From: Flavobacteriales bacterium
GTDB taxonomy: Bacteria; Bacteroidota; Bacteroidia; JACJYZ01
DNA length: 40,590 nt
Direction: 5' to 3'
NCBI GenBank assembly: GCA_020435415.1
Contig: JAGQZQ010000022.1
Coordinates: 1-40,590 of the forward strand
Shown: piece by piece, positions 2,121-26,864 of the stretch
Layout: every line of letters starts with the position of its first letter
How positions within the stretch are numbered: position 1 is the first letter of the stretch
Program-made: the position numbers and the translations under genes
The notes under the pieces: model-generated
Told to the model about the DNA's origin: nothing
What the model saw: the letters and a program-made list of their open reading frames with translations, nothing else
The model's database searches: none

Positions 2121-5100
2121 CTATTTTCTTTTAAACAGCGCATCCACCATATCGCTTCTATTCAAACTGGCGTCTACGCCCAGTTGCTCCGCTAACTTGA
2201 AAAGTGTTTCATCACTTAATGATGCTACCTCTTTTCTGGTCAGCGGTTGCGTTTTCAATCCTTCCTGTAGTTTTTTTGATAATGTTTCTCTTGTATCGGC
2301 CGTGGTCACTTTAAGCTGTCTGGACTCCATCAGGGCCGACAGTTCATTTCTGTTCAGGAATAAAAGATTATCCGTCAATGTTATTGTAGGTGTGGTCTCT
2401 CCCTGAATCTGGAAGTCCACGATCTGAGAAGAAGCCATGGCACCATCAAGGTCTACCGCCCTTCCCTGAAGTCTGTACGAACCGGCCTTGAGACCTTCCA
2501 TGACATACCCGAAATTCTGTTCCTTGGTGGTCACACCGTGGAGTTGTCCGTTCAACAGCACCTCCACTTTTGCCACGCCGGTATCGTCACCTGTGATGAA
2601 CACCACATCAATGGCAGAGCCAACCGGGAAGATCTGGTTTGTTTTCGGCTGTGCGATATTTACAAAGGGTGGTTCATTGCCACGAAGCAAACTGATATTC
2701 AGGAATGCCTGTGCAAACAATCCACTTGGATCGGTCACGCGTATTCCCAGTTGGAAGCCTTGTGAGTTGGGGAAGTTGGTGTTGCTGGCTACCACGATCT
2801 GTCCGGTGTTTGCAACAATGCGGAATGCATTGCCTGTATTTCCGGAAACGATACTGAAGGTGAGCGGATCTCCGTCAGGATCGCTGGCTTCCATGGTGGT
2901 CACCACTGTTCCTACCGCTATGGTCACAGGAATCTCAACACTTTGATTCCCGATGTTAGGGGCTTTGTTCTCATCAAACACCGTGATCACGACAAATGCT
3001 TCATCAAACAAGCCGAGAGGGTCTGTCACCCGAACACCCATTTCATATGGGATCGGCTCCATGGAATCCGGGTTGATGATCTGGATCTCTCCGGTTTGCG
3101 GATTGATGGCGAAGATATCCGTACGTCCTGTAAAGAATGAGAATGTCAGTGGTTCATTATCCGGATCGGATGCCTCCACAGTTCCAACGATGGTACCTTT
3201 AGGGCTATTCAGTGAGATAGAGAAATCCTGGTCAGGAATAAACGGCTCACCATTGCCTGTCGGGCGCAGGGTGATCTTTCCGCATCCGTCATTCTTATCA
3301 CCTTTCGCGGTGTACTTGAATGTATAAGGATCCTGGATGCTTTGGTTTACAAACATATGCAGTTCCACGCCACCGTTTTCAATGGATACGATTTCCTGAT
3401 TCACATCCGGATCATTGAACGTAAATCCTGGGTTATCCTTCAGGCTGGCCACCACATGGTCACCTTCTTTCACAGCAAATTCAAATGACGGGAGGCGAAC
3501 GCACATCTCACGAACAAGAACGGTGACGACCCCGGTATCTCTGAGCCCGTTATTGATGTTCTCCAAGGTATAGCTGTATTTTACAATGCCGGTGAAATCT
3601 TTGGGTGGGGTGAACAGCACACTGCGTTTGTCCTTGCTTATCTGCAATTGCGGTTGGTTATCATCAAGCGGCTTGACACCTACGATAAATACATTCCATG
3701 TCTCTTCCACTTCTTTGACGCAGAACTCTTTTTCCAGGTCATGAAGATTATGGTCGTTGATAACCAGCGGCATGGTGATGGATACATTCTCGAAAGTATA
3801 TCCGTAGTCAGGTCTTGCGTATGGCGCCACCATGATGTGTTCTTTCGCGATGGCATCATCGCAGACAGGAATGCAGCGGTGATCGTCACAGCATCGGTAA
3901 GGCAGGGAAAAGTCTGCCAGCACACGCTGGTTCATCCCCAGGAAATTGCCATAGACGATCACGAATGTTCCGCCGGATGGTGTACCGGCCATATGTTCTA
4001 TGCCGGGATGTTTGGCGATGTATTCACTGAACGTCTGACTATGTTTATTGAATTGAAGGGAGTAGTAATATTCCCTTCTTCTGAAAGCATAGTAAATTCT
4101 GTACAGGCGATTAAAGAACAGCATATCGAAGAACTGGTACACCACATGTGTAGCTTCTGCGATCACTTCCTGTGCAATATCGATACCAGTCACGTTATCC
4201 ACTTCCTGGGCACCTTCATCCACATCGTTCAGGTCAAGATGTTCGAACACCTTATCGGTCACAAAGACGATGGCATCTGCATAGCGATCTTTTAGCTCTT
4301 CGAATGATGCGGCGAAATCCGGAAGGCAGGGAGGCAATGTTTTACAGATGAATGTAACGATGCCTTTGTACACCTCTTCAATGATCTTCCTGACTTCGTC
4401 ATTGATTGGTTCTTCAAAATCCTTGTCGTTTTCCTTTGCGATCTCTTCGATCCTTTTGTAGAGATCCCAGACCGTGGGGCCGAACTTGAGCATGTTCACG
4501 ATCTGGTAGCGGCAGGAAATGTAGTCTTCGTGCAGGTCATGGAATCCGCAGTTGTAGTCTACGGGCATGTCTTCCAACGATGCAGGCACGACCGGGGCAG
4601 TCGCATTATTCACCCTTACCGCAACCACATCAAACGGGAGATTGTATTTGTGAATCTTTTCTTCCAGCAGGTCGATCACTTCGGCGCAGGATTTCCCGAG
4701 CCCACCTTCGATCCGGTAAAAACCGTAAGGGTCTCTGTTAAACTGAAGGGGCTTACTTACCTTGGTCTCTGTTGCCGGTCCGCCGGAGATATCATCATAG
4801 TTATTGGCATATGCCAGCAGTCCGTCACCAACGGCACATCTTCTTTTGATATCGTAGTCCCAAAGTGCTTCCAGGCTGCCAAACTTGCCATTGATCTTGG
4901 TTCTGAAATAGTATGGAATAGCCCGTTGGGTAAGCCAGGATTTTTTCTCATCGCTGGGTGTGACCTTTACTTTGAGCGGATCATAGCTTTCGGTCTTATT
5001 CACCCTGTCGGTATCAAATGCTTTAACCATTCGCTCCACCCGGTAAAACAGTGTTTGCGTTTCGAGCAACAACTTCCCGAAAGTCGCCTTGGCGGGGGAA

Positions 5101-6182
5101 TGCATGAATTGCTGACGGTAGGCTGACGGGATGCAGTCGGTGGTCACTTCACCAAGCATCAGGTGTTTCGGAAACTTCTTTTCATCGGGACAACATCTTG
5201 TAAGCAGGTCAAATGACACTTCTCTGAATTCACTGTAGGAAACAAAGAGGTCTTTGATAAAGTCATAGTAATACTGTATCCCCATATACTTCGGCGCGCT
5301 GCCACTGCCGTCGAAAATGGCTTTCCATGCATTGGCCATGGCGACGGGGTCAGCGAACGGATTGGCAGGAAGTGATTCCCTCAATATGGGTGCGAATGCT
5401 TCATAGGCGTCTTTCCAGGCGTTGAGTATGGCGAGAACGGGGTTCTGAGCTGCCGAAAAAAGTACGTTTCCGTAGGGTGCTGCAATCTTGGCGAACGTAT
5501 CGTAGTCTGCCACCGGTGGACTGAACAGCGGCAATTTCACACCAATATCCGGAAGGCGGTACCGGTCCGGGTATAGCATCACATCTTCATTCTCCGTACG
5601 CGGCAGTACCTTGTTTTCTATATCGGAAATAGAAATGAGCAACTTGCGCAGTGTGAATTTCCTTTCAATACCGATGTCGTCACAGCTTTTGGTGAGACAG
5701 GATTTCAGGTCTTTATCATAGCATTCGAGATAAAGAACCACCACCTTATTTTCGAAGATGGACTGATCAATTTGTACAATAGGTTCCTCACTTCCATCGG
5801 CTTCAAAATCATCCGTAAGCAGTTCCTGCATCACGATATCCTGCTGTTTGGTTGCAGGATTCTGAAACGGCGGATAGTCGATGTACGGATTCATCACATA
5901 ATTCCGGTAGGATGTGATAGGACATCCGCAGAATTGGATCAGAAAACCTTCCGAGGTGACGCCTACACCTTCTGAGATGTACAGCGTATCCACACCGAGG
6001 TCCGAATCGCTTTCGGGCACAAAACGGGTTTCCAGTCCGCACAGCACGCCGATACCGATCAGGCTGGACCGTGTGAGTCTTCCCTGCTCTTCCAGATAAG
6101 AAACCAGCTGGTTGAGCTGGGTGTTGGTCAGCACCTGGTTCTTTTCAAAAATGGGATAGGCATTATAGGTTGTAGAAGCCAT
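2121..6182 (-). CDS. giant eCIS-associated protein with cadherin-like and Ig-like repeats (Pvc13 position)
   Basis: A 1353-aa protein in the operon slot normally held by the Pvc13 tail fibre, but without any visible fibre-type (adenovirus-shaft) repeats. Residues 1-740 form a mixed helical region that starts with a segment (NQVLTNTQLNQLVSYL, then LIGIGVLCGLE) I believe recurs in Bacteroidota eCIS loci. A cysteine cluster CCDDHRCIPVC lies at 764-774. Two cadherin-like repeats follow (about 983-1070 and 1077-1166), each with an ASDPDxxPLTFS strand and a RVTDPxGLF strand, and then an Ig-like domain (about 1170-1260). The last 90 residues hold two short helical motifs resembling SAP or helix-extension-helix units (ending LAEQLGVDASLNRSDMVDAL). 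No signal peptide is visible, as expected for a particle component. It might be a surface-exposed adhesin or a shell around the baseplate; the function is inferred from position only. Confidence 0.75.
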   Translation of the reverse strand: MASTTYNAYPIFEKNQVLTNTQLNQLVSYLEEQGRLTRSSLIGIGVLCGLETRFVPESDSDLGVDTLYISEGVGVTSEGFLIQFCGCPITSYRNYVMNPYIDYPPFQNPATKQQDIVMQELLTDDFEADGSEEPIVQIDQSIFENKVVVLYLECYDKDLKSCLTKSCDDIGIERKFTLRKLLISISDIENKVLPRTENEDVMLYPDRYRLPDIGVKLPLFSPPVADYDTFAKIAAPYGNVLFSAAQNPVLAILNAWKDAYEAFAPILRESLPANPFADPVAMANAWKAIFDGSGSAPKYMGIQYYYDFIKDLFVSYSEFREVSFDLLTRCCPDEKKFPKHLMLGEVTTDCIPSAYRQQFMHSPAKATFGKLLLETQTLFYRVERMVKAFDTDRVNKTESYDPLKVKVTPSDEKKSWLTQRAIPYYFRTKINGKFGSLEALWDYDIKRRCAVGDGLLAYANNYDDISGGPATETKVSKPLQFNRDPYGFYRIEGGLGKSCAEVIDLLEEKIHKYNLPFDVVAVRVNNATAPVVPASLEDMPVDYNCGFHDLHEDYISCRYQIVNMLKFGPTVWDLYKRIEEIAKENDKDFEEPINDEVRKIIEEVYKGIVTFICKTLPPCLPDFAASFEELKDRYADAIVFVTDKVFEHLDLNDVDEGAQEVDNVTGIDIAQEVIAEATHVVYQFFDMLFFNRLYRIYYAFRRREYYYSLQFNKHSQTFSEYIAKHPGIEHMAGTPSGGTFVIVYGNFLGMNQRVLADFSLPYRCCDDHRCIPVCDDAIAKEHIMVAPYARPDYGYTFENVSITMPLVINDHNLHDLEKEFCVKEVEETWNVFIVGVKPLDDNQPQLQISKDKRSVLFTPPKDFTGIVKYSYTLENINNGLRDTGVVTVLVREMCVRLPSFEFAVKEGDHVVASLKDNPGFTFNDPDVNQEIVSIENGGVELHMFVNQSIQDPYTFKYTAKGDKNDGCGKITLRPTGNGEPFIPDQDFSISLNSPKGTIVGTVEASDPDNEPLTFSFFTGRTDIFAINPQTGEIQIINPDSMEPIPYEMGVRVTDPLGLFDEAFVVITVFDENKAPNIGNQSVEIPVTIAVGTVVTTMEASDPDGDPLTFSIVSGNTGNAFRIVANTGQIVVASNTNFPNSQGFQLGIRVTDPSGLFAQAFLNISLLRGNEPPFVNIAQPKTNQIFPVGSAIDVVFITGDDTGVAKVEVLLNGQLHGVTTKEQNFGYVMEGLKAGSYRLQGRAVDLDGAMASSQIVDFQIQGETTPTITLTDNLLFLNRNELSALMESRQLKVTTADTRETLSKKLQEGLKTQPLTRKEVASLSDETLFKLAEQLGVDASLNRSDMVDALFKRK

Positions 6183-9100: not shown

Positions 9101-10612
9101 GGACTCCAGTTCTGCGACCAGGGTATCCACCACGGTCTGATCTGCCTGATAAGGAAGTTGATCTTTATAATAGGTGATCTTTGAATCGGTGACTGACAAC
9201 CTGGGGATGTAGTTGTATTCGAAAGCCAGGTCGAGGCACCACTTCACGCTTTTGGAGGGGATGCCGTCATCATTATCCTGGGGCAGGTTGGCGATCTCGA
9301 TCTTTTTTACGGCAACGACACCTTCCACATCCATAATGATCTGGATAAGATCGGAGACATGGATCACATCGCGACGATCTGCGGCGTCCACATCTTCATC
9401 CAGCAGAAAACCATGTTCCAGCAATGGGCCTTCGTAGATCTTCTCCACCGGAATATCCATTTCCAACATTTCATCCAGGGAATAGTAAGGCACGGTGGGT
9501 GACAGAAACCTTCCGATGTGATAGTAAATCTGCGCCTGCACTTCTTCCACGTCGGCTTCGAGCTCCAGTTCAATATCCGTGCAAAGAGCGATCTCTTCGA
9601 TCTTGAGTGCATTGAATTTAAAAAAGTCCTCACACAGATTCCGATTGGCGTGGAGTTTTGCCTTAACGGCTTTCAGTATTCTGAATATCTTGAATACCTT
9701 GGCCTGATAGCGGGCAATCAAGCTATCCGGACCGTTGTAAATGTATGCGTTCAGGTTATCGGAGATCATATCCATACCCAGCACTTCCTCAGGATCCGGG
9801 GCTCCGGGCTTGAGGCCTGAGAGAACAACATACTTGTTATTGTCTACCTTATAATCGAAGGTATATCGTCTGGGTTTTCTGAAAAACTGAACATTGATAT
9901 TCTGAACGGATTTGCGGATGCTATCCGGATCATTCCAGTCTACCCCTTCTTCATCCCAGCGTGGAAACTCCACTTCCACTTTGATCACCAGGCCGTTCAA
10001 TTTATCGTCCACCGCTCCGGTCACGGTCATTTGTCCGTCGAGCTCATTTTCATTCAGATCACCATAGGCGTCGCATTTCTCAAACTCCAGCAATACGTTG
10101 TAAAGCGGTTTGATCTCCAATGGTGGTTTGCCCGGATGAAGGGGATGCGGATCATAGCTCAGGATACTTTCCACGGTATGGGCATGAACGGGAAATTCAT
10201 TTTCCGGAGAAACGCTGACCCAGGCATTTTTCACACCTACGAATGAGCAACCGTCGTCACTGCTGTCGCTTACCGAAACATCCATGATGATCTTCCGGAT
10301 ATCGCGAATGGTCAATGCTTTATTGGGAAGGATTTTTGCCGCGGTGAAGAAATTCTGTATATCCTTTTTATCCGGGTCGGAAGGATCCTGGGCAATGATA
10401 TTCCGGATGTCCTGGTTCACCCGATGTCCCAGGTCAGTGATGGCATAGCTCAACACTTCCAGAATGGTCACTCCCGGATCGTGGCTATTATAATCGGTCC
10501 AGATCTTTCCTGACAGGTTCTGCACATGCTCAACACCCAGATCACGAAGGGCTTGATACTGCATGCTCTCCAGTTCCGGTAGTTTCTTCGATATTTTGAT
10601 GGACTCTTCCAC
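6194..10612 (-). CDS. eCIS baseplate wedge protein (Pvc12-like), 1472 aa, with NDGxYxV repeats
   Basis: The N-terminus (SGKIWTDYNSHDPGVTILEV, about residues 35-54, then LSYAITDLGHRV) is the hallmark of the large baseplate proteins paired with J-like proteins in Bacteroidota eCIS. The conserved core resumes near residue 1140 (FHLVEHLLLRPR) and at 1346-1440 (YTYIASVIMPYWQGRFRN, then FFERKIRLEAPAHIFLNICW). Between these conserved blocks lie at least four degenerate repeats centred near residues 997, 1071, 1224 and 1304, each with an N(N/D)(G/D)xY/F core followed by beta-rich sequence. In PVC and AFP, Pvc12/Afp12 forms the wedge with Pvc11; that role is transferred from the family. The gene begins 51 bases after the J-like gene and ends 11 bases before the 1353-aa gene. 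At 1472 aa it appears longer than typical, mainly because of the repeats. Confidence 0.88.
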   Translation of the reverse strand: MEESIKISKKLPELESMQYQALRDLGVEHVQNLSGKIWTDYNSHDPGVTILEVLSYAITDLGHRVNQDIRNIIAQDPSDPDKKDIQNFFTAAKILPNKALTIRDIRKIIMDVSVSDSSDDGCSFVGVKNAWVSVSPENEFPVHAHTVESILSYDPHPLHPGKPPLEIKPLYNVLLEFEKCDAYGDLNENELDGQMTVTGAVDDKLNGLVIKVEVEFPRWDEEGVDWNDPDSIRKSVQNINVQFFRKPRRYTFDYKVDNNKYVVLSGLKPGAPDPEEVLGMDMISDNLNAYIYNGPDSLIARYQAKVFKIFRILKAVKAKLHANRNLCEDFFKFNALKIEEIALCTDIELELEADVEEVQAQIYYHIGRFLSPTVPYYSLDEMLEMDIPVEKIYEGPLLEHGFLLDEDVDAADRRDVIHVSDLIQIIMDVEGVVAVKKIEIANLPQDNDDGIPSKSVKWCLDLAFEYNYIPRLSVTDSKITYYKDQLPYQADQTVVDTLVAELESGEQSQKIENPVLDLKVPRGNYLQLEEYTSIQEDFPLVYGIGDEGLPASAPVKQKAQVKQLKGFLMFFDQLLANYMSQLAHVKDLFSMNAEKDEDGNYVIGRTYFTQVLKDIVPESDGLYTDPDHHPETLAELAEDQHLFFERRNKFLNHLMARFSEQFTDYALMTYRLAGVDADRDLIQDKLTFLNAYPEISAARGTAFNYMDRCHIWHIDNKSGLEKRGALMVGVDERKASDLSFSAPFDIIAVGDQFRFEIGSAPYILQSPDGILFDTTDEAALAIEDVITHGQYVTNFVVKEEGPGAFSFALYCNEVLSAISKKVNYASEELAGQAITQLHADLANEIFFNPESNRNNLAAPVDNYFEVDIAVDMVPTIPEYTISYKLHSEAYSTDPGDVIMTGEQTGDGEEGMTLLEMENLAQERAVDFIWDVVANGDDPDQYSFLPDEAPFTSPYEFVLTSRLGGELGRSTAFDFNIPVADAFNALTTKQVSITGADTNNGDYTFTGATADGPYVELTMTAPMPAAGSDGELAYTDSLSFTADKPGNAFILSGDYTPILHDVADVLIMGSGFNNGLFNIRKVSLVSGDTVIEVKEELASTNSDGTLSFTKSFPVHLISGNKVTVLGGLDTKAVNDTVAFFKTKFYSNEGFHLVEHLLLRPRVNGWYFVPADEDTLASGLADKGLIFFERKLDIKSSVKSSKIFRVEGDWTAEIYAGLLVAVSGTHANDDTYTVNTATYDVGDDVTEIKVVQAFPETTTEPQGIVSYHVSSPVQAVITANRDVIVAGEIPVDAETVVHLTGSTDQRNDGTYKVESSEIQGGSTHIILASIESLVQDRLLPVNLDPDCIYCQLENPYTYIASVIMPYWQGRFRNADFRKFFERKIRLEAPAHIFLNICWVSNAHMSEFEEMYKRWLLEISKEDRDHVQLSIALSNLIDILTRLRNVYPVGHLHDCEEDNTTENSIILNNSILGNA

Positions 10613-10663: not shown

Positions 10664-13600
10664 TTAATCACAACCACATCCATCAGCAGCTAGCTCTTTC
10701 ACACCGAACACTTCGTTTTCATCGCATCCGCAGATCGCCTCTTCCATCACGTGGATGAGATGTTCCGGTGCAGATCCGAGTACGGATCCGGTGGTGCTGG
10801 CTCGCGCCTCGTTAATGTCTATGGTTGACGGTGCCACACCCTCCGATGGCACTGTATGATACATTTTAAAGCAGGTCACATAATCTACATAGTCCCGTTC
10901 TTCCACAAAATTCAGGATCATGGATTTGTGTATTCTTCCGCCGAAGACGATATCCGAGCTATCCTCATAGGCCCATGGGGACAGGAAAGCTTTGATCTCA
11001 TCATTCAGTAATTCCTGGTAATAACCATTGTCGATACCGTCATAAAACTTGACATTCAACTCCACCTGAATTTCTTCATACAGTGGGTTTCTGACATGAA
11101 GCTCTACGCATTCCGCTTTAATATCGGTAAGGAATGTTTCGATCTCCGCCAGGGTAATCAGACTGGTTTTAGGTTTTAGCGGGTCTACCGCATTCTTATT
11201 GATCACGCTGGAAATCACAATGAGGGACACATGTCCAGGCGCAACCTCGGAGTAGTCTGTTGTTGTTCCATTAAAAATGGTATGGTTGATGCACTTCACC
11301 TTATACACGGAAGGGAACTCTTCCAGCACGAGTCTTTCATAGTCCCAGATGGTGATAGCGCGCTGCTTATGCCTCAGCCGTTCACTGACCCGCGTATAAA
11401 AAGCACTGCTGCTTTCTTTCAGCTTTCCACCGAATGAGCTGAAAGGCTGCTCTACCTTATCAATGGCAGAGTCGCTTTCCCGGAGCTTCTTGATCGTCTC
11501 CGCAGGCAAAGCCTTTCCCAGTCGGTTGGGGTCATTGTTGATATCCTCAGCGGTGGCTGTAACCGCTTGTGCGCGGATATCCACCATATCGGAAATGGCG
11601 GGTGTATCCTTGTCGACGGTAGCCCTGATCCAGAGCAAACCATCGGAGAGTAATTCGTGTGAGGTATTCGCTTCTTTGGGCAGAGCAAAGGAAATGATAC
11701 CGGAAGTCAGCAAACCGTTGGTGGAATCTGACAATATCTTCCGGTCGTTGAAGGTCTTCCAGGTATTGCCGGCCAGATAACTCCAATTTACCTTCTGTTG
11801 CAGATAGTCAGGGTTTGCGCTGCCCTCTGCAACCTGGAAAAGAAGTGACAGATTACTTCCTCCGGTTAAATTTTCAATTCCGATATAGAGGCTGCCTTCG
11901 CTGGTGATTACCGGCATCAGGTCATTGGTGGCTTCCCTGGCATCCGTTTCTGCCGCACCGAATGGGTGCACATGAAAGAACTGTTCCACCCGGTTTTCCC
12001 ATGCCTTCTCCGATTGCTTTACAATATTCAGATCAACAGAGGAGGAATAGTCCAGGGACAGTTCCTTGATCGTTGGTGTGTAGGGTTCATTCGGAAGATT
12101 TGGAGGGACCGGCGGATTGGCGGTTACACCTGCCAGCACCTGTTGGGTATAAGAAGTAGGATAATCCTTATGACCGAAGTTTTCCCCTTTCAGGGTCATC
12201 CTCAGAAATCCTTTTTGTGTTGTCGTATCAAGCTGGGTGAACGGAATGATCTCCGGATCACGTTTTACATCGCCAAGCGAATCGGTTGCTCCGGTGTTCG
12301 CTACAGATAAAAATAGGTTGTTGACCGGATTGATGATTTCCTCATCGGTGGCATTATCGAATAGCTGGAGATAACTTCCGTCTTTCATCACCGGCGTCCA
12401 CTCTCTTTTATCAAGCAAAGAAACCTCTGTAAGAAAGGTGGTATTCTGACGTTCGCCGGTCTGCACGGTATAGTTGGCATAATACGCGCCGAAGCTTTGT
12501 TCTTCAGGAAGCTCATGCCATTGTATGTTGACGGTCAGTGTTTCCAGATTCTTTTGAAAGATCTCCTGGTTGCCGATGTAGAAGGAGGCATCAAGTTGCG
12601 GCCGGTTACCGAATGGCTGGAATGGCTTGGCCGGATCAAGCCGGGCAGCATCATTCTGAATAATATTACTCTTCACATCCGACACATTCACATGGATGTT
12701 GGCTGCGGTCAGGTCGAGGTCCCTGAGATATTTATACACATACGGGCTTGCCGGATAATCACGATTCAATGTGACCTTCATCACCGGCCACGATGTTTTA
12801 TACGGTTCAAGAAGTACCTCCTGATTGTAAGCAACCACGGCGGGCTGACTTTCCTCTATGGTACGGATGATGGTGATCGTGTTGGCAACGGGGTCTACAA
12901 TGGTGGCATTGGACAGGTTCCTGAAAGTGTAGGCCATGTCGTTCAGCTTATCAATACCGAAGCCTTTCACATCCAGCAGCTGATCAAGGGAGGTGTAAGA
13001 GCCGATGATATTCCGTTTGGCGACGATGCGTTCTGCCACCAGCGCACCTATATCATAATCATCGATCTGGTCTCCATAACCGGTATTCGGGTCATCGCTG
13101 ATCTTGTGATCGAGGTCATCTTTCGTGGCAGAGTTTGCAAATGCCAGTATTCTTTCGACCACCTGCGGATGATACTTTCCATCGGTGACATCATACGCAT
13201 CCTCACCTTCGGGAGATATCCATTCTTCTTCTCCACTGAACACCACATCAAATGATTTATCAGCATGCGGAAACACGGATCCGATCTTTGTCTCCGGAGA
13301 AAATGTGAGGGTAACGGTTACCGTTCTTTCTCCTTCGGCAAGGAAAAGTATGGGAGATGCAAATGCAAAACCGATCTCGGGTTGATCCCTGTCGGTATTA
13401 CCGAATATCTCCCAATGCATGTCTTCACTCTCGATTTCAGCACCTTCTCCATCTGATGAGTTTGCGATGGGAGAGGCATACAGGCGTTGCGTGTTTTCTA
13501 CATCTGCAAACAGTGCCTTGATGGCGCTCACCTCACCTTTGTTCACCACGAGTTCATCATCCGTAGCGAAGAACAGAGGTTGTCCGGTGTCATCTTTCCC

Positions 13601-14116
13601 GGCCTTCAGCTCTGTGTTTTCCTTTACAGCATGGGATTTGGCAATGTGCTTTGCCAGGGTGAAGATGAGGAATACCTGATCTGAAACGGCTGGCTTTTCT
13701 TCCAGGCGAAGTACTTCTTTATAATAGAAATCAAGATGGCGTTTTGTAATGGTGTTAAGGTCATCCTGTGCCTTCCTGAATAACTTCAGAAACGCAAGGA
13801 ATAACGCAAAATGAGGCTGGGTGAATCCGCCCTTCTTTTCAACATAATCCAGAAAATTCTCTGTGTCGCTGTAATCTTCATCCAGCAGGATATCGATGTC
13901 ATTGTCGGCGTTGAAGAACGTTTTCCAATCACCATCTGCCAGGTTATCAATATCCACATAGGCGATCTCACCCGCATACTGCTGCACAAAGGTGATGAGG
14001 TCCTTCATGCTGCGTTCGTCCACCGCCACATATTCAGGCAACAATGCTTCCGCCAGCCGTTCATTCCGGTTGGTTCCGTCGCGCTGTATAAGGGCTTTAT
14101 TTTCGCAGGTTTCCAT
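10664..14116 (-). CDS. eCIS baseplate J-like protein (Pvc11-like)
   Basis: A 1150-aa protein recognisable by its C-terminal third, where FYTRVSERLRHKQRAITIWD and YERLVLEEFPSVYKVKC match the baseplate-J-like (gp6/Pvc11) family; the very C-terminus carries the usual late domain with alternating strands and helices (VELHVRNPLYEEIQVELNV). About residues 365-405 (YTSLDQLLDVKGFGIDKLN) resemble a helix-hairpin-helix unit, which is unexpected in a baseplate component. The last 30 residues contain CGCDENE and end DGCGCD, a small cysteine cluster. The protein should form the wedge heteromer of the baseplate with the Pvc12-like protein encoded directly downstream. It begins 9 bases after the gp25-like gene. 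The family call is secure; the HhH-like segment and cysteine tail are what I read from the sequence and have no assigned role. Confidence 0.9.
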   Translation of the reverse strand: METCENKALIQRDGTNRNERLAEALLPEYVAVDERSMKDLITFVQQYAGEIAYVDIDNLADGDWKTFFNADNDIDILLDEDYSDTENFLDYVEKKGGFTQPHFALFLAFLKLFRKAQDDLNTITKRHLDFYYKEVLRLEEKPAVSDQVFLIFTLAKHIAKSHAVKENTELKAGKDDTGQPLFFATDDELVVNKGEVSAIKALFADVENTQRLYASPIANSSDGEGAEIESEDMHWEIFGNTDRDQPEIGFAFASPILFLAEGERTVTVTLTFSPETKIGSVFPHADKSFDVVFSGEEEWISPEGEDAYDVTDGKYHPQVVERILAFANSATKDDLDHKISDDPNTGYGDQIDDYDIGALVAERIVAKRNIIGSYTSLDQLLDVKGFGIDKLNDMAYTFRNLSNATIVDPVANTITIIRTIEESQPAVVAYNQEVLLEPYKTSWPVMKVTLNRDYPASPYVYKYLRDLDLTAANIHVNVSDVKSNIIQNDAARLDPAKPFQPFGNRPQLDASFYIGNQEIFQKNLETLTVNIQWHELPEEQSFGAYYANYTVQTGERQNTTFLTEVSLLDKREWTPVMKDGSYLQLFDNATDEEIINPVNNLFLSVANTGATDSLGDVKRDPEIIPFTQLDTTTQKGFLRMTLKGENFGHKDYPTSYTQQVLAGVTANPPVPPNLPNEPYTPTIKELSLDYSSSVDLNIVKQSEKAWENRVEQFFHVHPFGAAETDAREATNDLMPVITSEGSLYIGIENLTGGSNLSLLFQVAEGSANPDYLQQKVNWSYLAGNTWKTFNDRKILSDSTNGLLTSGIISFALPKEANTSHELLSDGLLWIRATVDKDTPAISDMVDIRAQAVTATAEDINNDPNRLGKALPAETIKKLRESDSAIDKVEQPFSSFGGKLKESSSAFYTRVSERLRHKQRAITIWDYERLVLEEFPSVYKVKCINHTIFNGTTTDYSEVAPGHVSLIVISSVINKNAVDPLKPKTSLITLAEIETFLTDIKAECVELHVRNPLYEEIQVELNVKFYDGIDNGYYQELLNDEIKAFLSPWAYEDSSDIVFGGRIHKSMILNFVEERDYVDYVTCFKMYHTVPSEGVAPSTIDINEARASTTGSVLGSAPEHLIHVMEEAICGCDENEVFGVKELAADGCGCD

Positions 14117-18599: not shown

Positions 18600-20018
18600 T
18601 TATGATTGCTGTAATTTGTGTGAGAATTTCAGGATGATGAATTCTGCGGGTCTGACAGCGGCCAGTCCGATTTCAATGTTCATTCTTCCTTCCAGGATAT
18701 CCTGAGCAGACATGGTCACACCCAACCCTACTTTCACAAAAAATGCCTGATCTGTCTTGGCTCCGGCCAATGCACCATCCCTCCAAAGTTTGGTCAGGAA
18801 ATTCTCGATCATGGTTTTAACCCGCAGCCAGGTGTTGGCGTCGTTGGGTTCAAACACGGAAAACTCTGTGGCTTTCTTCACCGATTCCTCTACAAAAATG
18901 AAGAGACGGCGAACCGGTACATAGCGCCACTCATTATCGTTTCCGGCCAGGGTTCTTGCGCCCCACACCAGGGTTCCTTTTCCGGGGAAAGCGCGCAATG
19001 CGTTGATCGACTTCCCGGAAGTCGCATCGATATTGAGGCTTTCCTGTTGCTCGCGTGTGATCTTGATAGTAGGTCCGACGATGGAAAATACACCAACGTT
19101 TGCCGGGGCCTTCCATACGCCGCGGTCATTGTCTACCCGGGCATAGATACCCGCCATAGCCGGTGACGGTGGCAATGTCACAAGCAATGTCGTCAGCTTG
19201 GCGATGATGCTGCGATACACATCGGGGTTTGACGCTTTGATGGCCGCAATGGTATCACCATCCAATGCACCGGGGTTGGCCGGATTGATTTCATTATGCG
19301 ATACGGTCAACAGGCTTTCATCATAACCATATGCCAGTGTTGTTTTGATATAAGGATAGTAGGCAGCACCGTACTTCAGGTTGTCAGAGCTTACGCCTGA
19401 ACTTCTGAAGGCGGTGGCATCTGCGAAGGCGTCGCCCGTCTCACCTTTATAGTCCATGATCACAAAGCGGTCTTTCAGTTTCTGGCATTGGGCCAGCGCT
19501 TCGTCGTAGACATCCTTGTAATTGGCCACGGTAGAATGGTCCGGGAATACCAGCAAGGTCGGTTCATCGATCTTCTCGATATCGGCCACACCATTCATCA
19601 ACTTGGACTTTGCAACGTTGGCTGTGGATCCCGAGTAATCACCTACCGATACGATGTAACACGGACCGCCACCATTAGCGAAGAAATGTTGCAGCGCATA
19701 GTACATCTTGAATGCACTCGCGCTTCCGATGGCAACGGATATGGTTCGGCTCACCACTTCGGCGCCGCCGTCCATATCGTCTTCTATGCCAACCGTGATG
19801 GCGGCATGTTCGGAAAACGGACCGCCGAAATACTGCTCGTACTCCAGCATATTGGTGATTCGTGTGGGAACGCGATCGAGTGCACCGCCCACGCCATTCT
19901 TATCCGCGATCTCTGTGCATCCTATGAATGCGGGTATCGCCGTTTCTACCGCCGCAACCGAGGGAGGCAGCGTGCTGACCTCTTCGATGTAGACTCCGGG
20001 GGTTTTGGGAAAAGCCAT
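18600..20018 (-). CDS. eCIS sheath protein, third paralogue
   Basis: A 472-aa sheath protein. The N-terminal block (KTPGVYIEEVSTLPPSVAAV) and the C-terminal 150 residues (from GKSINALRAFPGKGTL through NEWRYVPVRRLFIFVEES to AAVRPAEFIILKF) are the conserved sheath handshake regions. The middle domain (about 80-280) is unlike the two other paralogues, and this is the only copy with the GAAYYPYIKTTLAYGY variant. In PVC/AFP three sheath genes are also present; one forms most of the sheath and the others form specialised rings near baseplate or cap. Assignment to one of those roles cannot be made from sequence alone. Confidence 0.93.
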   Translation of the reverse strand: MAFPKTPGVYIEEVSTLPPSVAAVETAIPAFIGCTEIADKNGVGGALDRVPTRITNMLEYEQYFGGPFSEHAAITVGIEDDMDGGAEVVSRTISVAIGSASAFKMYYALQHFFANGGGPCYIVSVGDYSGSTANVAKSKLMNGVADIEKIDEPTLLVFPDHSTVANYKDVYDEALAQCQKLKDRFVIMDYKGETGDAFADATAFRSSGVSSDNLKYGAAYYPYIKTTLAYGYDESLLTVSHNEINPANPGALDGDTIAAIKASNPDVYRSIIAKLTTLLVTLPPSPAMAGIYARVDNDRGVWKAPANVGVFSIVGPTIKITREQQESLNIDATSGKSINALRAFPGKGTLVWGARTLAGNDNEWRYVPVRRLFIFVEESVKKATEFSVFEPNDANTWLRVKTMIENFLTKLWRDGALAGAKTDQAFFVKVGLGVTMSAQDILEGRMNIEIGLAAVRPAEFIILKFSHKLQQS

Positions 20019-20056
20019 AGTATCTTGTTTTTATTGGATGAGTAAGGTGAGTTATA

Positions 20057-21493
20057 TTAGGATTCCTGAAGTTTATGAGAGAATTTCAGGATGATAAATT
20101 CTGCAGGACGAACAGCGGCCATGCCGATCTCTACATTCATCCGCCCTTCCAAAATATCCAGGGGTGTCATGGTTTCTCCAAGGCCTACTTTTACAAAAAA
20201 GGCCTGTTCGGGTTTGGCACCCGCAAGGGCACCTTCACGCCAGAGTTTTACCAGGAAGTTCTCGATCATGCCCTTTACGCGCTGCCAGGTACCGGCCGTA
20301 TTGGGCTCGAATACCACGAACTCGGTCGCCTTTTTGACAGACTCTTCCACGAAAATGAACAACCTGCGAACAGGCACATAGCGCCATTCGTTGTCGTTCC
20401 CTGCCAGGGTACGTGATCCCCATACCAGCACGCCTTTTCCACTGAAGGTGCGAATGGCATTGATGGACTTTCCGGAAACCGCATTCACATTCAGGTTTTC
20501 CTGCTCTTCCGCTGAAATATTGAGGAGAGGTTCTGCTACACTGCGTACGCTTACGTTAGCAGGTGCTTTCCACACCCCACGCTCACGGTCTACCCGGGCG
20601 TATATTCCGGCAACGGATGATCCGGGAGACAGGATCACCTTTGCCTGGCGATTGATCTCACCCTTGATCTGGTAGTAAACCGCCAGGTTGGTGTTGGCAC
20701 CTTCACTGCTGAGGTCATCCAGACCCAGACCGTCAAAAGCGCCGGCAGGATTGGTGTCACCATCGTCGGTGGTATGGGTGATGGTGACGTCCGCATCAAC
20801 ATAAGGAACCACAATGGATGAACGGAGGTACGGATGGTATACCGCACCATACTTCAGGTCGTCGATCCCTAAGGTTGTTGATGCGTCTACCGTATCTGAA
20901 TCGCTGTTGTGTGTATCGATGATGGTGAATCTGTCTTGCAGAGATGCACATTGTGCCAGCATTTTCTGCGCGAGTTCATAGTGATCATCGGCGTTAAGTC
21001 CATCAGCGGTCTCAGGCATCAGAAGCAATGTGGGCTCATCCACTTTCTTAATGGCATCCAGGCCATCTTCAAAATCATCCTTGCTGAAGGCCGCCACAGG
21101 AAACGTGTGGGGATTCGGGTTTACCGAAACGATATAACACGGACCGCCGCCGTTGGCAAAGTACATCTGCACGGCATGATAAAGGTTGTGTTCAGACGGA
21201 TCCGCCTGGGCTACCGTTATGGTACGGCTGATGAGATCGCCGGCCGGGCCGGTCAGTTTATCATGAACGGTCACATCCAGTTCTTCAGATTCGGGTCCAC
21301 CGAAGATCTCTTCAAATTCAGGAAAGGAAGTGATGCGCACGGGGACGTTAGGTCCCAGCGTGACGCTGTCTTTCCTGCGTTTCTCCGTATAGCCTATAAA
21401 TGCCGGGATCGCTGTGGCAACGGCCGCAACAGATGCAGGGAGTTTGGATATCTCCTGAATATAAACACCAGGGGTTTTGATCACTGTAGCCAT
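20057..21493 (-). CDS. eCIS sheath protein, second paralogue
   Basis: A 478-aa sheath protein with the same N-terminal (KTPGVYIQEISKLPASVAAV) and C-terminal blocks as its neighbours. The C-terminal core (GKSINAIRTFSGKGVLVWGS, then NEWRYVPVRRLFIFVEES, and AAVRPAEFIILKFSHKL) is almost identical to the flanking copies, while residues 60-300 differ, including an acidic loop with DADVTITHTTDDGDTNPAGA. The pattern fits an old tandem duplication with strong constraint, or gene conversion, on the part that interlocks sheath subunits and free divergence of the outer domain. It is separated by 38 bases from the next copy and 33 from the previous one. Confidence 0.93.
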   Translation of the reverse strand: MATVIKTPGVYIQEISKLPASVAAVATAIPAFIGYTEKRRKDSVTLGPNVPVRITSFPEFEEIFGGPESEELDVTVHDKLTGPAGDLISRTITVAQADPSEHNLYHAVQMYFANGGGPCYIVSVNPNPHTFPVAAFSKDDFEDGLDAIKKVDEPTLLLMPETADGLNADDHYELAQKMLAQCASLQDRFTIIDTHNSDSDTVDASTTLGIDDLKYGAVYHPYLRSSIVVPYVDADVTITHTTDDGDTNPAGAFDGLGLDDLSSEGANTNLAVYYQIKGEINRQAKVILSPGSSVAGIYARVDRERGVWKAPANVSVRSVAEPLLNISAEEQENLNVNAVSGKSINAIRTFSGKGVLVWGSRTLAGNDNEWRYVPVRRLFIFVEESVKKATEFVVFEPNTAGTWQRVKGMIENFLVKLWREGALAGAKPEQAFFVKVGLGETMTPLDILEGRMNVEIGMAAVRPAEFIILKFSHKLQES

Positions 21494-21526
21494 GTGTTGA
21501 ATGGGTTAGCTTGTTTTACAATGGGT

Positions 21527-22993
21527 TTAGGATTCCTGCAGCTTATGAGAGAACTTCAGGATGATAAATTCGGCGGGGCGAACGGCGGCAAGACCTATCT
21601 CCACGTTCATACGTCCTTCAAGGATATCCAATGCGGTCATGGTTTCACCCAGACCTACTTTCACAAAGAAGGCATCTTCGGGTTTGGCACCTGCCAGGGC
21701 ACCTTCACGCCATAGTTTCACGAGGAAGTTCTCGATCATGCCTTTTACCCTGAGCCAGGTGTTGGCATCATTGGGTTCAAAGACCACGAACTCTGTTGCC
21801 TTTTTGGTGGATTCTTCAACAAAAATGTAGAAGCGGCGAACGGGAACATATCGCCATTCATTGTCATTCCCTGCCAGGGTGCGCGCACCCCAGATCAGGA
21901 TTCCTTTACCTGCAAAATTGCGGATAGCGTTGATTGATTTACCGCTGTTGGCATCCACGTTCAGGTCTTCCTGTTCTTCACTTGAAACAAGTGCAACGGG
22001 AGCTTTTACAGAACGCAGGCTGACATTTGCAGGAGCTTTCCAGACTCCGCGGTCACGATCGACGCGGGCATAAGTTCCGGCAATAGCGCTGCATGGATAT
22101 AATTTCACTTTGATCTTCCGGATCTCATTGATCAGTTTGGCGTATGCATCGGTGGCTGTTTCTTTGATATCGGCCAGGCTGTCCTGATTGGCAGGTGCTG
22201 CATCCAGGGTGATCACTGCATCATCAAAATCTTCGGCAGCCGCGTATGCTCCGTTCACCGTGCGATTCACTTTCAGAGCGGATTCATCGTAGGCGAAATT
22301 AATGGTGGTTTCCAGCTGAGGGTAGTACGCGGCACCATACTTCAGGTAGGTACTTCCTACATAATCATCGCGAAAATCATCGCCATCCTCTTTCACAGTT
22401 TGTGCGCTATCGGTAACCACATCCATGATCACAAACCGATCCTGGAGTTTGTTGCATTGCGCGAGGGCGGCATCGTATAATTCTTTGGCATCCGCAGGAT
22501 CCAATGTATTTGCCTCGGGGATGGTGATGAGTGTGATCTCATCTTCCATCTCACATTTCTGGAGCCCTTCCAGAAGAGCTGCCTTGGCGGGAGAACCTGC
22601 TGCCGTGCCTCCCACGGATACGATATAACATGGGCCGCCTCCATTGTTGAAATACATCTGAATGTAATAGTACATTTTGTAATCACTTTCAGATGGCAGG
22701 GTCACCTCATACTCCCGGCTTTGAAGCAGCCAGGTACCCGGGTTGTCGGCATCTTCTTCTGTTGTATCCTTAACCCTCAGGGTAAAGGTTTCGTTCTTCG
22801 CAACGCCGAACCATTGCTCATATTCAAGGAGCGACGTGATGCGTGTAGGCACATCGGTGATGTCTTCTCCATTGCGGGTGGCGTCGGCAGTATAGCCTAT
22901 GAAGACGGGGATAGCCGTGGCTACCGGTGCAATTGAAGCCGGCAGGGTGGATATCTCCTCCACATAAACACCGGGGGTTTTGTATTCAGGCAT
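21527..22993 (-). CDS. eCIS sheath protein, first paralogue
   Basis: A 488-aa sheath protein, the longest of three. Conserved ends are KTPGVYVEEISTLPASIAPV at the N-terminus and the shared C-terminal core with NEWRYVPVRRFYIFVEES and ALDILEGRMNVEIGLAAVRP. The middle region includes an aromatic/acidic stretch (TFTLRVKDTTEEDADNPGTW) and an insertion near 255-290 not seen in the third copy. The glycine-rich FNNGGGPCYIVSVGG segment is present in all three with small changes. As the first sheath gene behind the cap and discoidin genes it may be the main sheath protein; that is a guess from order. Confidence 0.93.
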   Translation of the reverse strand: MPEYKTPGVYVEEISTLPASIAPVATAIPVFIGYTADATRNGEDITDVPTRITSLLEYEQWFGVAKNETFTLRVKDTTEEDADNPGTWLLQSREYEVTLPSESDYKMYYYIQMYFNNGGGPCYIVSVGGTAAGSPAKAALLEGLQKCEMEDEITLITIPEANTLDPADAKELYDAALAQCNKLQDRFVIMDVVTDSAQTVKEDGDDFRDDYVGSTYLKYGAAYYPQLETTINFAYDESALKVNRTVNGAYAAAEDFDDAVITLDAAPANQDSLADIKETATDAYAKLINEIRKIKVKLYPCSAIAGTYARVDRDRGVWKAPANVSLRSVKAPVALVSSEEQEDLNVDANSGKSINAIRNFAGKGILIWGARTLAGNDNEWRYVPVRRFYIFVEESTKKATEFVVFEPNDANTWLRVKGMIENFLVKLWREGALAGAKPEDAFFVKVGLGETMTALDILEGRMNVEIGLAAVRPAEFIILKFSHKLQES

Positions 22994-23010: not shown

Positions 23011-24522
23011 TTATACAAATACATACATCTTGGATTCAACGATATGGTTTCCCGGTACGGCGGGATTGTTCAAATGCGATATGATCACGGGATCAGACGC
23101 GCTGGTATTCTTGAGTGCCAGTCCTGTTTTGGGCGACTGGAACAAGGGTATGGGTTGTTTTGAATTAAAGGTGATGGCATTCCTTCCGGCCCACTCCGTA
23201 CTGGATTCATCCAACGGCCCCTTCACAAATTCGTAAGTGGCATAAGGATTTCCCGTATCACCGCTGTCATCTTCAATGACCAGATCAGCGTCTGTGAAAT
23301 CGATCTGACCTGACTTGTCTATAATGGTGAATGTCCAGTAGGTGGCCTTCTGGTCAAACTGTAGTGCGTAATATTCCTGGTCGCCAAACAGGTGGGCATC
23401 AGCTCCCGGGTATGCAATCTCCACGATTCCCAGTGGTGCGGTACCTGCCAGTTCGGGATGATAGTAGAGTCGTTTCGTGGCAAGGGTCTGCGACTCATCC
23501 GTTGTTTTCACAGTAAAGATGTAAAGGCCTGAAGGTCTGCTTCCCAATCTCACGGGATGTCCGGACACCCCATCATCATCTGGGATGATGGTTGCGGTAT
23601 TGTCGTCCGGTCCGGTTAATTTGAAAACCTCTCCTGTTGGGCCCGTCACTTCCACGATCGTATCCACCGGGGTTTCGAGTGCATATACAAAGTTGAAGGC
23701 GGCCGGCACGATCCTGTCGATCAGATCTTGTGCGATGATCTCCGCGTTATTGGGATCTGATGAGGCGGATGCGGGTACATTTTTAAAATACGCCACTTTG
23801 CCCGAGGTATATTCGGTCACTTCGTAGCTGGCATTTGCGAACACGGAAAGTTCTTTGATACCATACCCTTTTCCATTGTTGCTTTCCTCACATTGAATTC
23901 TCACGTACCGGCCGGTTGCAGCCAATCCGGAGACATTGATATTGTTGCCGTTGCTTCCTTCAAACCTGGATATGGCAATCCATTGACCGGGCTGGTGTGC
24001 AACCTGGATCTCAAAAGTCTCCGCACGTTTTTGCCATTTGATATCAATTTCAGTGATGCGGAATAACTGTCCAAGATCTACGATGATGAATTGATCATCA
24101 TTCTCCTCGCTTTGCCATGAAGTGGCGTTGGAGCCGTCTACTGCGTTTTCACCTCCACTGGAACCATCCTTGACGGACGACACTGTCACATCCTTATTCT
24201 CTGCCTGATTCACCGATGGATTAACAGCCGTTTCCGTGATCACATCCAGGTCTGTAAAACTTTGAAACACCTGGGGGCTGGAATGATCAAGGCTGAACAC
24301 GAGGGTCTGATCTCCCGATATCCCGATCACCGGATCACTGCCGGAGGTGATGTATTCATATAGCATCACATAACCGGATTCCAGTCTTCGCCATATCCAG
24401 CGACCATTTCGCATCAGGAGCGAAGTATTTCCATCAGGTTTCAGATAGAGGTCACGTCCCTTCCCATCATGATAATACGGATGATTGAAATCTACCTGAA
24501 ATAATGGAGTGTATGCAGCCAT
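23011..24522 (-). CDS. eCIS-associated protein with discoidin (F5/8 type C) domain
   Basis: A 503-aa protein starting at the ATG two bases past the cap gene's stop (a GGGGGG run just upstream can serve as ribosome binding site). The start (MAAYTPLFQVDFNHPYYHDG) and the region beyond residue 240 (YFKNVPASASSDPNN onwards) are beta-rich and not known to me by function. Residues about 108-229 form an F5/8 type C domain: ENAVDGSNATSWQSE, then FIIVDLGQLFRITEIDIKW and a final GRYVRIQCEES segment, the classic jelly-roll that binds sugars or lipids. No signal peptide is visible, so it probably acts on the particle rather than by ordinary secretion. It could mediate target or host binding, or hold the cap end; both are inference. 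Confidence 0.75.
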   Translation of the reverse strand: MAAYTPLFQVDFNHPYYHDGKGRDLYLKPDGNTSLLMRNGRWIWRRLESGYVMLYEYITSGSDPVIGISGDQTLVFSLDHSSPQVFQSFTDLDVITETAVNPSVNQAENKDVTVSSVKDGSSGGENAVDGSNATSWQSEENDDQFIIVDLGQLFRITEIDIKWQKRAETFEIQVAHQPGQWIAISRFEGSNGNNINVSGLAATGRYVRIQCEESNNGKGYGIKELSVFANASYEVTEYTSGKVAYFKNVPASASSDPNNAEIIAQDLIDRIVPAAFNFVYALETPVDTIVEVTGPTGEVFKLTGPDDNTATIIPDDDGVSGHPVRLGSRPSGLYIFTVKTTDESQTLATKRLYYHPELAGTAPLGIVEIAYPGADAHLFGDQEYYALQFDQKATYWTFTIIDKSGQIDFTDADLVIEDDSGDTGNPYATYEFVKGPLDESSTEWAGRNAITFNSKQPIPLFQSPKTGLALKNTSASDPVIISHLNNPAVPGNHIVESKMYVFV

Positions 24523-24524
24523 GA

Positions 24525-25127
24525 TTACCCCCCGATCAGATTTAGATTGTTTTCCAGGATCGGTGGACCCTGTTCTTTGACCGCTGCTTCCTGGAATCTT
24601 ACCACCCGGATTTTGTACAGCACAGAAGGGAGGTACTTCGCGCCGATAACGGTCCAAAGGTTGTCCTGTTGTTCGAAGCCGTAATAGTACAGTTCGACAA
24701 TCAGCTTTTCCAGTTCACCCATGGCTGCCATGGCCGGTGTATTGGCGGGCGTGAACACATGTTTCTGCTGGAAAAAAGAGATGATGTAGGAAAGCTGCTT
24801 GAGCCCTTCCGTATATTTTGTACTGGTGGCGTCGGTATCTCCGTTTGGGAAATTGGCCGTTACCAAAGCGTATAAATTAAACCGGAGTTCCGGATTGTAG
24901 AAAGATATTTTCCCGTCAGGATTTTTGTGCGCAGAATTTTGTTCCTTCAGCATTCTCTCCTCTTCCACCTTCACAAGGGACATGCCCAGCTTGTCTTCCG
25001 GAATAGCCCAGCTTCCACTCTCGGTAGCTACGTTGGACAGTACGATCTTATCTTCAACCGTTCCGTTCTTCAAATTCAGATAGCTATTGGCTTCACCTCT
25101 GAGCAGTATGAGGGCCTTATCAATCAT
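24525..25127 (-). CDS. DUF4255 / Pvc16-like eCIS cap protein
   Basis: A 200-aa protein of the Pvc16 N-terminal domain family (DUF4255). Markers are IDKALILLRGEANSYL at the start, KISFYNPELRFNLYALVTAN in the middle, the GLKQLSYIISFFQQKHVF helix, and a C-terminal LPSVLYKIRVVRFQE strand. In PVC and AFP the homologue caps the distal end of the sheath and tube. Here it is the first gene of the operon, whereas Pvc16 is last in the PVC order. The start follows a leader with an AGGAG sequence about 15 bases upstream, and a promoter candidate at 25158-25189. Confidence 0.9.
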   Translation of the reverse strand: MIDKALILLRGEANSYLNLKNGTVEDKIVLSNVATESGSWAIPEDKLGMSLVKVEEERMLKEQNSAHKNPDGKISFYNPELRFNLYALVTANFPNGDTDATSTKYTEGLKQLSYIISFFQQKHVFTPANTPAMAAMGELEKLIVELYYYGFEQQDNLWTVIGAKYLPSVLYKIRVVRFQEAAVKEQGPPILENNLNLIGG

Positions 25128-25388: not shown

Positions 25389-26864
25389 TCACCCGAAAAC
25401 CGGCAAGCGTTTGTTACGGTTAAGGCTGTGTTCATGACCTTCCAGCCATTCACCGGCCGGGATCAATTCAAAAGCGATAGGGTCCCAGGCAAGACTATTA
25501 CCGGACTTTCCGTCAAAAGTCAGCAAAGTAATCTGGCGCCCGTGTGGTTCGCGATGATCAGGAATACCGGCTGTTCGGACAATGGAAGCAAGGGCACGGG
25601 CAATCAATCTGTAGCGTTGCGTTCCCGGTTCATCCCTGCGTTTCAATAATTGCTGAAATGCATCAATACGTATCTGAGCCAGGTCCCACTTCCGGCTTTC
25701 AATCAGGAGGATCAATTCGGTGTAACGGTAACCAAGATCCGCACCGTACACCCTGTCGTCCAGCATGCAGGTGGCTTTTTGAATTCCGAGAAGGGCGGCT
25801 TGCAGGTGCCCCTTTCTGTAGTGTATAACGGATCTGTAGAACATCCAGCGGTATCCCTTTTCTGTCTGACCTACGGCATTGAGCAGGTACTTTTCGGTCA
25901 ATGCTTCAGCTTCCTCGTATTGCCGGGCATACAGGTAGGTCCTGAATAACAGTTCACTCCATACTTCCGTAACAGGCTCACCCTTCATTTCATCATAAAT
26001 CAGACTTTGAAGTCTGGCTGACGCCTCCGCCCATTGCCCCGTGTACAAATAACAGAGGGCAATATTAAAACTCCCGTTCTGTCTTCCGGAATGGGACAAT
26101 GATTCCGGGTCCATGTTATCTACTTCAATCGCCTGCTGAAGCGCTTTCTGGTATTCTCCTTCCACCCTCAGAATGCACGATGAGAAGCTAAGCAGGTAAT
26201 AACGAATTTCAGCTGTAGGTCGACTGCTCATGGCACCACTAAGATCATTCACCAAATCTCTGATCACTTCTTTCCGTTCAGAAAGCATCGCCAGGTTTTC
26301 ATACAGTGCGGCGCGGTTGAACACAAATGTTTTGAGGTATTGCCGGGCCACCAGAAGATGGGCCATCTGTCGAAGGTCATGAGGATCCTTTTCACCGATC
26401 AATTGTTCCAGGGTCTCTCCCGGAAAAAATTCAGAAATAAACTCCAGAACCATCACCTGCTCTGTAGACAGATGATTTTTCCAGGCGAGCTGGGCAGCAG
26501 TCTTCAGATTCCGCCACCCCTCTGTTTTAATTCCTTTTCTCACCAGGATCTCGCTGAGCAACATCTTTTTTCTGCAGGCAGTGCGGGATGCTTCAACCAT
26601 ATCTCCATCCGAGATATTGGCCAGCATGACATCCATGATGTCGTCGAGCAATCTGCTTTTCAAATGGGAAAACGCGGAATTCGGCTTACCCCCATATAAC
26701 ATCTGCGCAGCATCCAGATCGGTGCATACTTTTCCACGGTGCACCAACTCAAAAAGTTCAAGTCTTTTTGAATGCTGACTATCATTTCTGTTCTTGTAAT
26801 ACGTCCGTATTTTAATGATGTCGGCCCTTCCGAGTGCTCCGATCACCTCTTTAAGTCTTTCCAT
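25389..26864 (-). CDS. helical-repeat (TPR-like) protein of unknown function upstream of the eCIS
   Basis: A 491-aa, almost wholly helical protein. The N-terminus (MERLKEVIGALGRADIIKIR) and a YYKNRNDSQHSKRLELFELV helix precede a run of paired helices from about residue 205 to 420 with TPR-like features (YQKALQQAIEVDN, ALCYLYTGQWAEASARLQSL, YLYARQYEEAEALTEKYLL, HYRKGHLQAALLGIQKA). There is no signal peptide, membrane span or catalytic motif. I do not recognise a named family. It lies on the same strand, 261 bases upstream of the eCIS operon, and the gap carries a candidate promoter, so it is probably a separate unit. A role as an eCIS regulator or assembly factor is possible from position only. 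Confidence 0.7.
   Translation of the reverse strand: MERLKEVIGALGRADIIKIRTYYKNRNDSQHSKRLELFELVHRGKVCTDLDAAQMLYGGKPNSAFSHLKSRLLDDIMDVMLANISDGDMVEASRTACRKKMLLSEILVRKGIKTEGWRNLKTAAQLAWKNHLSTEQVMVLEFISEFFPGETLEQLIGEKDPHDLRQMAHLLVARQYLKTFVFNRAALYENLAMLSERKEVIRDLVNDLSGAMSSRPTAEIRYYLLSFSSCILRVEGEYQKALQQAIEVDNMDPESLSHSGRQNGSFNIALCYLYTGQWAEASARLQSLIYDEMKGEPVTEVWSELLFRTYLYARQYEEAEALTEKYLLNAVGQTEKGYRWMFYRSVIHYRKGHLQAALLGIQKATCMLDDRVYGADLGYRYTELILLIESRKWDLAQIRIDAFQQLLKRRDEPGTQRYRLIARALASIVRTAGIPDHREPHGRQITLLTFDGKSGNSLAWDPIAFELIPAGEWLEGHEHSLNRNKRLPVFG

Follow-up and report, generated by a model that had tools for sequence, protein, structure and literature searches.

The window, i.e., the whole 40,590-nt stretch of DNA that was analyzed, contains a gene cluster that, judging from its baseplate, fiber and cap matches (Table 1), is an AlgoCIS-type bacteroidotal eCIS. 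The gene that concerns us here encodes a 503-aa protein and lies next to the cap gene. After it, the same strand carries three sheath genes, two tube genes, and genes for a LysM-containing CIS tube protein, a VgrG-like spike, PAAR and gp25, followed by genes for an Alg11/Cis11-type baseplate protein, a 1472-aa protein, the fiber and the tape measure. The fiber is likely the receptor-binding fiber, to judge by its sequence; the fiber 9wt0 has a length of 1443 aa, which is the length given for AlgoCIS Alg19 (PMC13314943). The fiber encoded here contains cadherin and bacterial Ig repeats and, examined by eye, ends in a charged helical tail resembling a small SAP/HeH-type domain.

Several other features of the cluster can be described. 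The three sheath genes (18600–22993) are tandem paralogs containing 300-nt DNA repeats with 73–81% identity, with the two tube paralogs next to them; the number of sheath genes in related Bacteroidia loci ranges from one to three. The 1472-aa protein (6194–10612) has no Pfam match and a weak TIGR02243 baseplate match at its N-terminus, and its C-terminal third appears by eye to hold two or three diverged beta-rich modules; it is probably a gp7/Alg12-type part. Upstream of the cap gene by 261 bp, on the same strand, is a gene for a 491-aa TPR-like protein (25389–26864) with weak family matches only. The genome has one Pvc16_N gene. Two eCIS_core proteins (PF13699, E about 1e-31; L137 and L138), encoded roughly 2 kb apart on another contig (C97), away from the particle genes, are candidate cargo.

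In the list of ORFs, the 503-aa gene has its ATG at position 24522 and reads to 23011; the plus strand across this interval has stops throughout and no open frame. The ATG lies 2 bases after the end of the cap gene, and the stop codon lies 17 bases before the first sheath gene. A longer, TTG-started ORF of 548 aa was rejected because it runs into the cap gene, while the ATG follows a GGGGGG stretch. A promoter scan gave no signal above chance. The first-pass annotation called this the second gene of the operon, which is correct on the condition that the operon starts at the cap gene, upstream of which there is a 261-bp gap.

Table 1. Features of the eCIS cluster and of the 503-aa protein, with positions in the window
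Feature	Position	Strand	Basis
Cap adaptor (Alg16B/Cis16B family) gene with F5/8C insertion, 503 aa	23011..24522	-	ORF and translation; family profile matches PDB 7b5i, 7adz, 9r9n
Cap-adaptor N-terminal core, residues 1-93	24244..24522	-	Common to 67 relatives; tblastn blocks end at residues 92-97; pLDDT about 90
Inserted segment, residues about 94-236	23815..24243	-	150-residue spacer versus <=18 in 67 relatives; all nearest relatives have a gap here
F5/8 type C (discoidin, CBM32-like) domain, residues 112-222	23857..24189	-	PF00754 E 3.1e-16; sole one in genome; CBM32 fold match
K118, E to K at conserved ligand-site Glu	24169..24171	-	Alignment; ligand role as reported for DD1/DD2
S135, R to S at conserved ligand-site Arg	24118..24120	-	Alignment; ligand role as reported for DD1/DD2
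Q164, E to Q at conserved ligand-site Glu	24031..24033	-	Alignment; ligand role as reported for DD1/DD2
Cap-adaptor C-terminal part, residues 237-503 (long-form beta-sandwich and C-terminal core)	23014..23814	-	Relatives and model
Cap protein (Pvc16_N; Alg16A/Cis16A type)	24525..25127	-	Pfam E 1.1e-32; 7adz cap E 3.2e-15
First sheath gene, 17 bp downstream of adaptor gene	21527..22993	-	Phage_sheath_1C E 1.7e-12
Alg11/Cis11-type baseplate protein	10664..14116	-	Anabaena PDB 7b5h E 7.5e-167; AlgoCIS 7aeb E 1.2e-153
Alg19/Cis19-type fiber, 1353 aa, cadherin/Ig repeats	2121..6182	-	7b5h All3314 E 5e-52; 9wt0 E 1.2e-44; Pfam

The 503-aa protein is a cap adaptor of the Alg16B/Cis16B family. Establishing this required a family profile, because a single-sequence search of the PDB matched the F5/8C part only. 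Within the class, 48 further genomes have a Pvc16_N gene, and the region downstream of it was fetched from each; in most of these Bacteroidia loci, the interval between cap and sheath holds a homolog of the parts that flank the F5/8C domain. A profile built from the 503-aa protein and 21 relatives (22 sequences) matched Anabaena All3326 (7b5i; E 4.6e-28), AlgoCIS Alg16B (7adz; E 1.2e-22) and SalCis16b (9r9n; E 2.6e-19). The top fold matches of the full-length AlphaFold model are likewise 7b5i and 7adz, with TM-scores by target of only 0.49–0.55, reflecting differences in domain placement. The core of this model has a pLDDT of about 90, with the F5/8C domain itself poorly resolved. Together with the fold matches, the core model as a whole agrees with the solved cap-adaptor fold, in which an Ig-like N-terminal domain is followed by a C-terminal beta-barrel. 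The gene order, cap (Pvc16_N), adaptor, sheath, is the same here as in most related loci. Thus, by profile, fold and gene order, the claim that the domain is built into an eCIS particle protein at the cap end is borne out.

In AlgoCIS, the adaptor forms a hexamer at the far end of the particle from the baseplate and fibers, where it connects the cap with the most distal layer of the sheath. It is lost on firing, and particles without it mis-assemble (PMC8894135, PMC13314943), and its deletion destabilizes the distal end (PMC8894135). In the Anabaena CIS, Cis16A terminates the tube and Cis16B terminates the sheath (PMC8894136).

The family varies considerably in length. A set of 68 cap adaptors comprises short forms of 253–313 aa and long forms of 328–436 aa, the latter with an extra middle beta-sandwich that is missing from AlgoCIS Alg16B (e.g., Algoriphagus boritolerans, locus L040, 2975–4105). 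One adaptor (locus L065, 2391–3342), in one of three eCIS clusters of another genome (G172), is split into two ORFs and is perhaps a broken or frame-shifted copy. A pattern search had to rely on a four-member alignment, the broad alignment being too divergent, and returned three loci. Scans of viral contigs and a phage search found no relatives. Plasmid matches were set aside, covering at most 40% of the query and being, where annotated, discoidin-domain proteins or a glycosyl hydrolase; matches of two family members to a T9SS sorting tail (E 0.022 in the 503-aa protein) were judged to be chance Ig-like similarity.

Relative to the rest of this family, the F5/8C domain is cleanly inserted in a hairpin on the surface of the N-terminal Ig-like domain. 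In the alignment of the 68 Bacteroidota cap adaptors, 150 residues separate the columns of residues 92 and 243 here, versus at most 18 (median 8) in the 67 others. The nearest relatives align from residue 3 or 4 to residues 92–98, and again from residues 236–238 to the C-terminus; in the genes of these relatives, the two blocks lie side by side. In most of them the split points are at residues 92–97 and 237–238; in three tblastn comparisons the second block begins earlier, because the end of the F5/8C domain happens to match. The AlphaFold model places the insertion point in a turn that joins two strands of the N-terminal domain. Both junctions of the insertion are in frame and the GC content of the domain (0.473) matches that of the operon (0.495, sd 0.024), making an assembly artifact unlikely. 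Because of this match in GC content, the insertion is also not evidently recent.

Among the cap adaptors sampled, only this one has the domain. The first-pass annotation had proposed a search for homologs that lack the domain; none of the 67 relatives has an F5/8C match, which identifies the domain as an insertion, and the other eCIS loci that were fetched contain no F5/8C-like ORF. In searches across the phylum and the family (~1,500 genome look-ups in total, with some genomes counted repeatedly with different queries), only this genome has cap-adaptor and F5/8C matches in one frame; elsewhere, the two are in separate frames. With the fusion known from a single instance, there is no conservation to show selection.

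The assignment of the domain itself is secure. Its PF00754 match scores 60.1 bits, well above the cut-off of 28.2, and the related family PF22633 agrees (E 7.4e-15). The boundaries first proposed, at about residues 108–229, are right to within a few positions and lie inside the inserted segment (Table 1). No other F5/8C domain was found in the 3.48-Mb, 98.8%-complete genome. A separate AlphaFold model of residues 97–232 (pTM 0.74) has the predicted fold of a jelly-roll beta-sandwich. With this model, a fold search gave 296 matches at E <= 0.001, with CBM32 modules leading; the best matches in the PDB are chitosan-binding CBM32 modules (4zy9, E 6e-11, TM 0.79). The structure prediction suggested in the first pass thus upholds the F5/8C call, since the model matches solved CBM32 modules. 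By sequence, the closest solved relatives are DD1 and DD2 (E 1.4e-10), modules of a secreted Paenibacillus chitosanase/glucanase (4zxe, 4zy9, 4zz5, 2rv9; TM about 0.8).

In F5/8C-type domains, the conserved tryptophans and arginines are mainly structural, and ligands are bound by protruding loops (PMC2789033). One discoidin domain, from a Paenibacillus glucanase, has laminarin, chitin and further polysaccharides as ligands in vitro, and F5/8C domains can bind proteins too (PMC2789033). The nearest relatives of the inserted domain, at most about 40% identical to it, are in open frames of 784–1762 aa in the Cyclobacteriaceae-type family that was searched. The neighborhoods read for these relatives contain chitinase- or glucanase-like sequence (labels read from sequence), further copies of the discoidin domain, and often a secretion-tail-like C-terminus. 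Of 37 positions strongly conserved among these relatives (in at least 13 of 14), the inserted domain keeps 22, including the tryptophans and arginines of the fold.

The sugar pocket has fared differently. Crystal work on DD1 and DD2 reportedly identified ligand contacts at Glu14, Arg31, Tyr/Glu36 and Glu61 (DD numbering), which align with K118, S135, E140 and Q164 of the 503-aa protein. Three of these four contacts are substituted (Table 1), at positions where E, R and E are conserved in no fewer than 13 of 14 Bacteroidota relatives, and several loop charges have been lost. Because of these changes, sugar binding may be weakened, altered or gone. The known sugar pocket has thus not been retained, although the domain may have a different ligand.

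Comparison with known systems shows what is unusual about this protein. Both AlgoCIS cap-module proteins have counterparts here, and Alg16B is of the same family by profile and fold; however, Alg16B has 284 aa and lacks both the F5/8C insertion and the extra middle beta-sandwich, whereas the 503-aa protein has both. Cis16B/All3326 of the thylakoid-anchored Anabaena CIS (7b5i; PMC8894136), the best family match, is a long form of 399 aa without an F5/8C domain, and its own extra length falls after the strand that follows the insertion site. The nearest named relatives of the core are the 376-aa adaptors of Algoriphagus mannitolivorans and A. boritolerans (about 30–35% identity). The A. boritolerans locus has the same cap-adaptor-sheath order, but in both species there are 11 residues in place of the 150 found here.

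There are precedents for carbohydrate-binding modules on eCIS. The AlgoCIS spike cage (Alg11) bears two putative ones (PMC8894135), and many have been catalogued on eCIS tail fibers, in a paper from which the word "discoidin" is absent (PMC12923769). These modules are at the baseplate, or target, end of the particle, whereas the one described here is at the cap. In the open-licence literature we found no description of a carbohydrate-binding module on a cap adaptor, nor of a binding function at the cap end of any eCIS. The suggestion that no characterized eCIS has such an element is in line with this. What is new is the place of the module, known from one genome.

What might the inserted domain do? 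We see about an even chance that it is a module displayed at the distal rim, in six copies by analogy with AlgoCIS, for a surface or matrix ligand, serving docking or retention rather than target recognition. The adaptor hexamer would join the tube cap to the last sheath layer, and if its arrangement is that of AlgoCIS, six F5/8C domains would ring the distal, non-injecting end of the particle. We infer that they would bind a surface or matrix ligand, e.g., glycans of the producer envelope or exopolysaccharide, a host or mat matrix, or neighboring particles. The ring would then position or retain the particle, while the baseplate fibers recognize the target. The tether would presumably be shed at firing, given that contraction releases the adaptor in AlgoCIS. 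Consistent with display, the domain is intact, in frame and operon-like in GC content, and its relatives are on chitinase- and glucanase-like enzymes. There is also a precedent, in function only, for decorations of structural proteins that bind glycans at a site remote from the receptor-binding tip: Hoc decoration of the heads of T4-like phages holds the phages in mucus (PMC11853027, PMC6867891). A bolder version, in which the ring is a rear-end docking device that keeps loaded particles attached to a glycan matrix or to one another, spike outward, until it is shed with the adaptor at firing, strikes us as unlikely.

As the fold signature is kept but the residues that contact sugar in the nearest solved modules are replaced, the domain could instead be structural, strengthening the hexameric adaptor ring, or its junction with the sheath (three paralogs here), through protein-protein contacts and having no outside ligand. 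Protein binding is possible for F5/8C domains (PMC2789033), extra reinforcement is plausible given that deletion of the AlgoCIS adaptor destabilizes the distal end (PMC8894135), and the middle of the family already varies by a whole beta-sandwich (lengths 253–436 aa). However, the domain is missing from all 67 relatives, including that of A. boritolerans, from a cluster that likewise has multiple sheath genes, and a beta-sandwich with close ends inserted in a hairpin would seem suited to outward display. We regard a structural role as the next most likely reading after display, though a doubtful one. The same substitutions, and the restriction of the fusion to one genome among all those searched, would also fit a near-neutral insertion, i.e., a domain shuffled from a secreted enzyme gene and tolerated with no role. 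This we find improbable, since the genome has no other F5/8C copy, the identity to the nearest relatives does not exceed about 40%, and the GC content is operon-like, none of which points to a recent event; even so, the fold positions and the reading frame are still intact.

The first-pass annotation had suggested that the domain could be a target-binding surface; it would then aid recognition of, or adhesion to, the cell to be injected. The CBM32-type fold is compatible with this, and six copies would lend avidity. However, in AlgoCIS the adaptor and the spike are at opposite ends of the particle (PMC8894135), a particle bound distally would fire away from its target, and three of the four presumed ligand residues are substituted. 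Moreover, the cluster encodes a separate fiber of the AlgoCIS/Anabaena type, a relative of the fiber by which AlgoCIS has been shown to bind (PMC13314943). Because of the position of the cap and the presence of this fiber, we consider target recognition very improbable, and the proposal is not upheld.

The display of a docking or retention module at the distal rim remains our preferred reading. Whatever the role of the domain, a loop of the cap adaptor tolerates a whole folded domain with the conserved core unbroken. The finding raises the question of whether the rear end of an eCIS docks to the producer, to a matrix or to other particles; with a lectin-type domain on the cap adaptor, the particle would be able to interact with the outside through its distal end as well.
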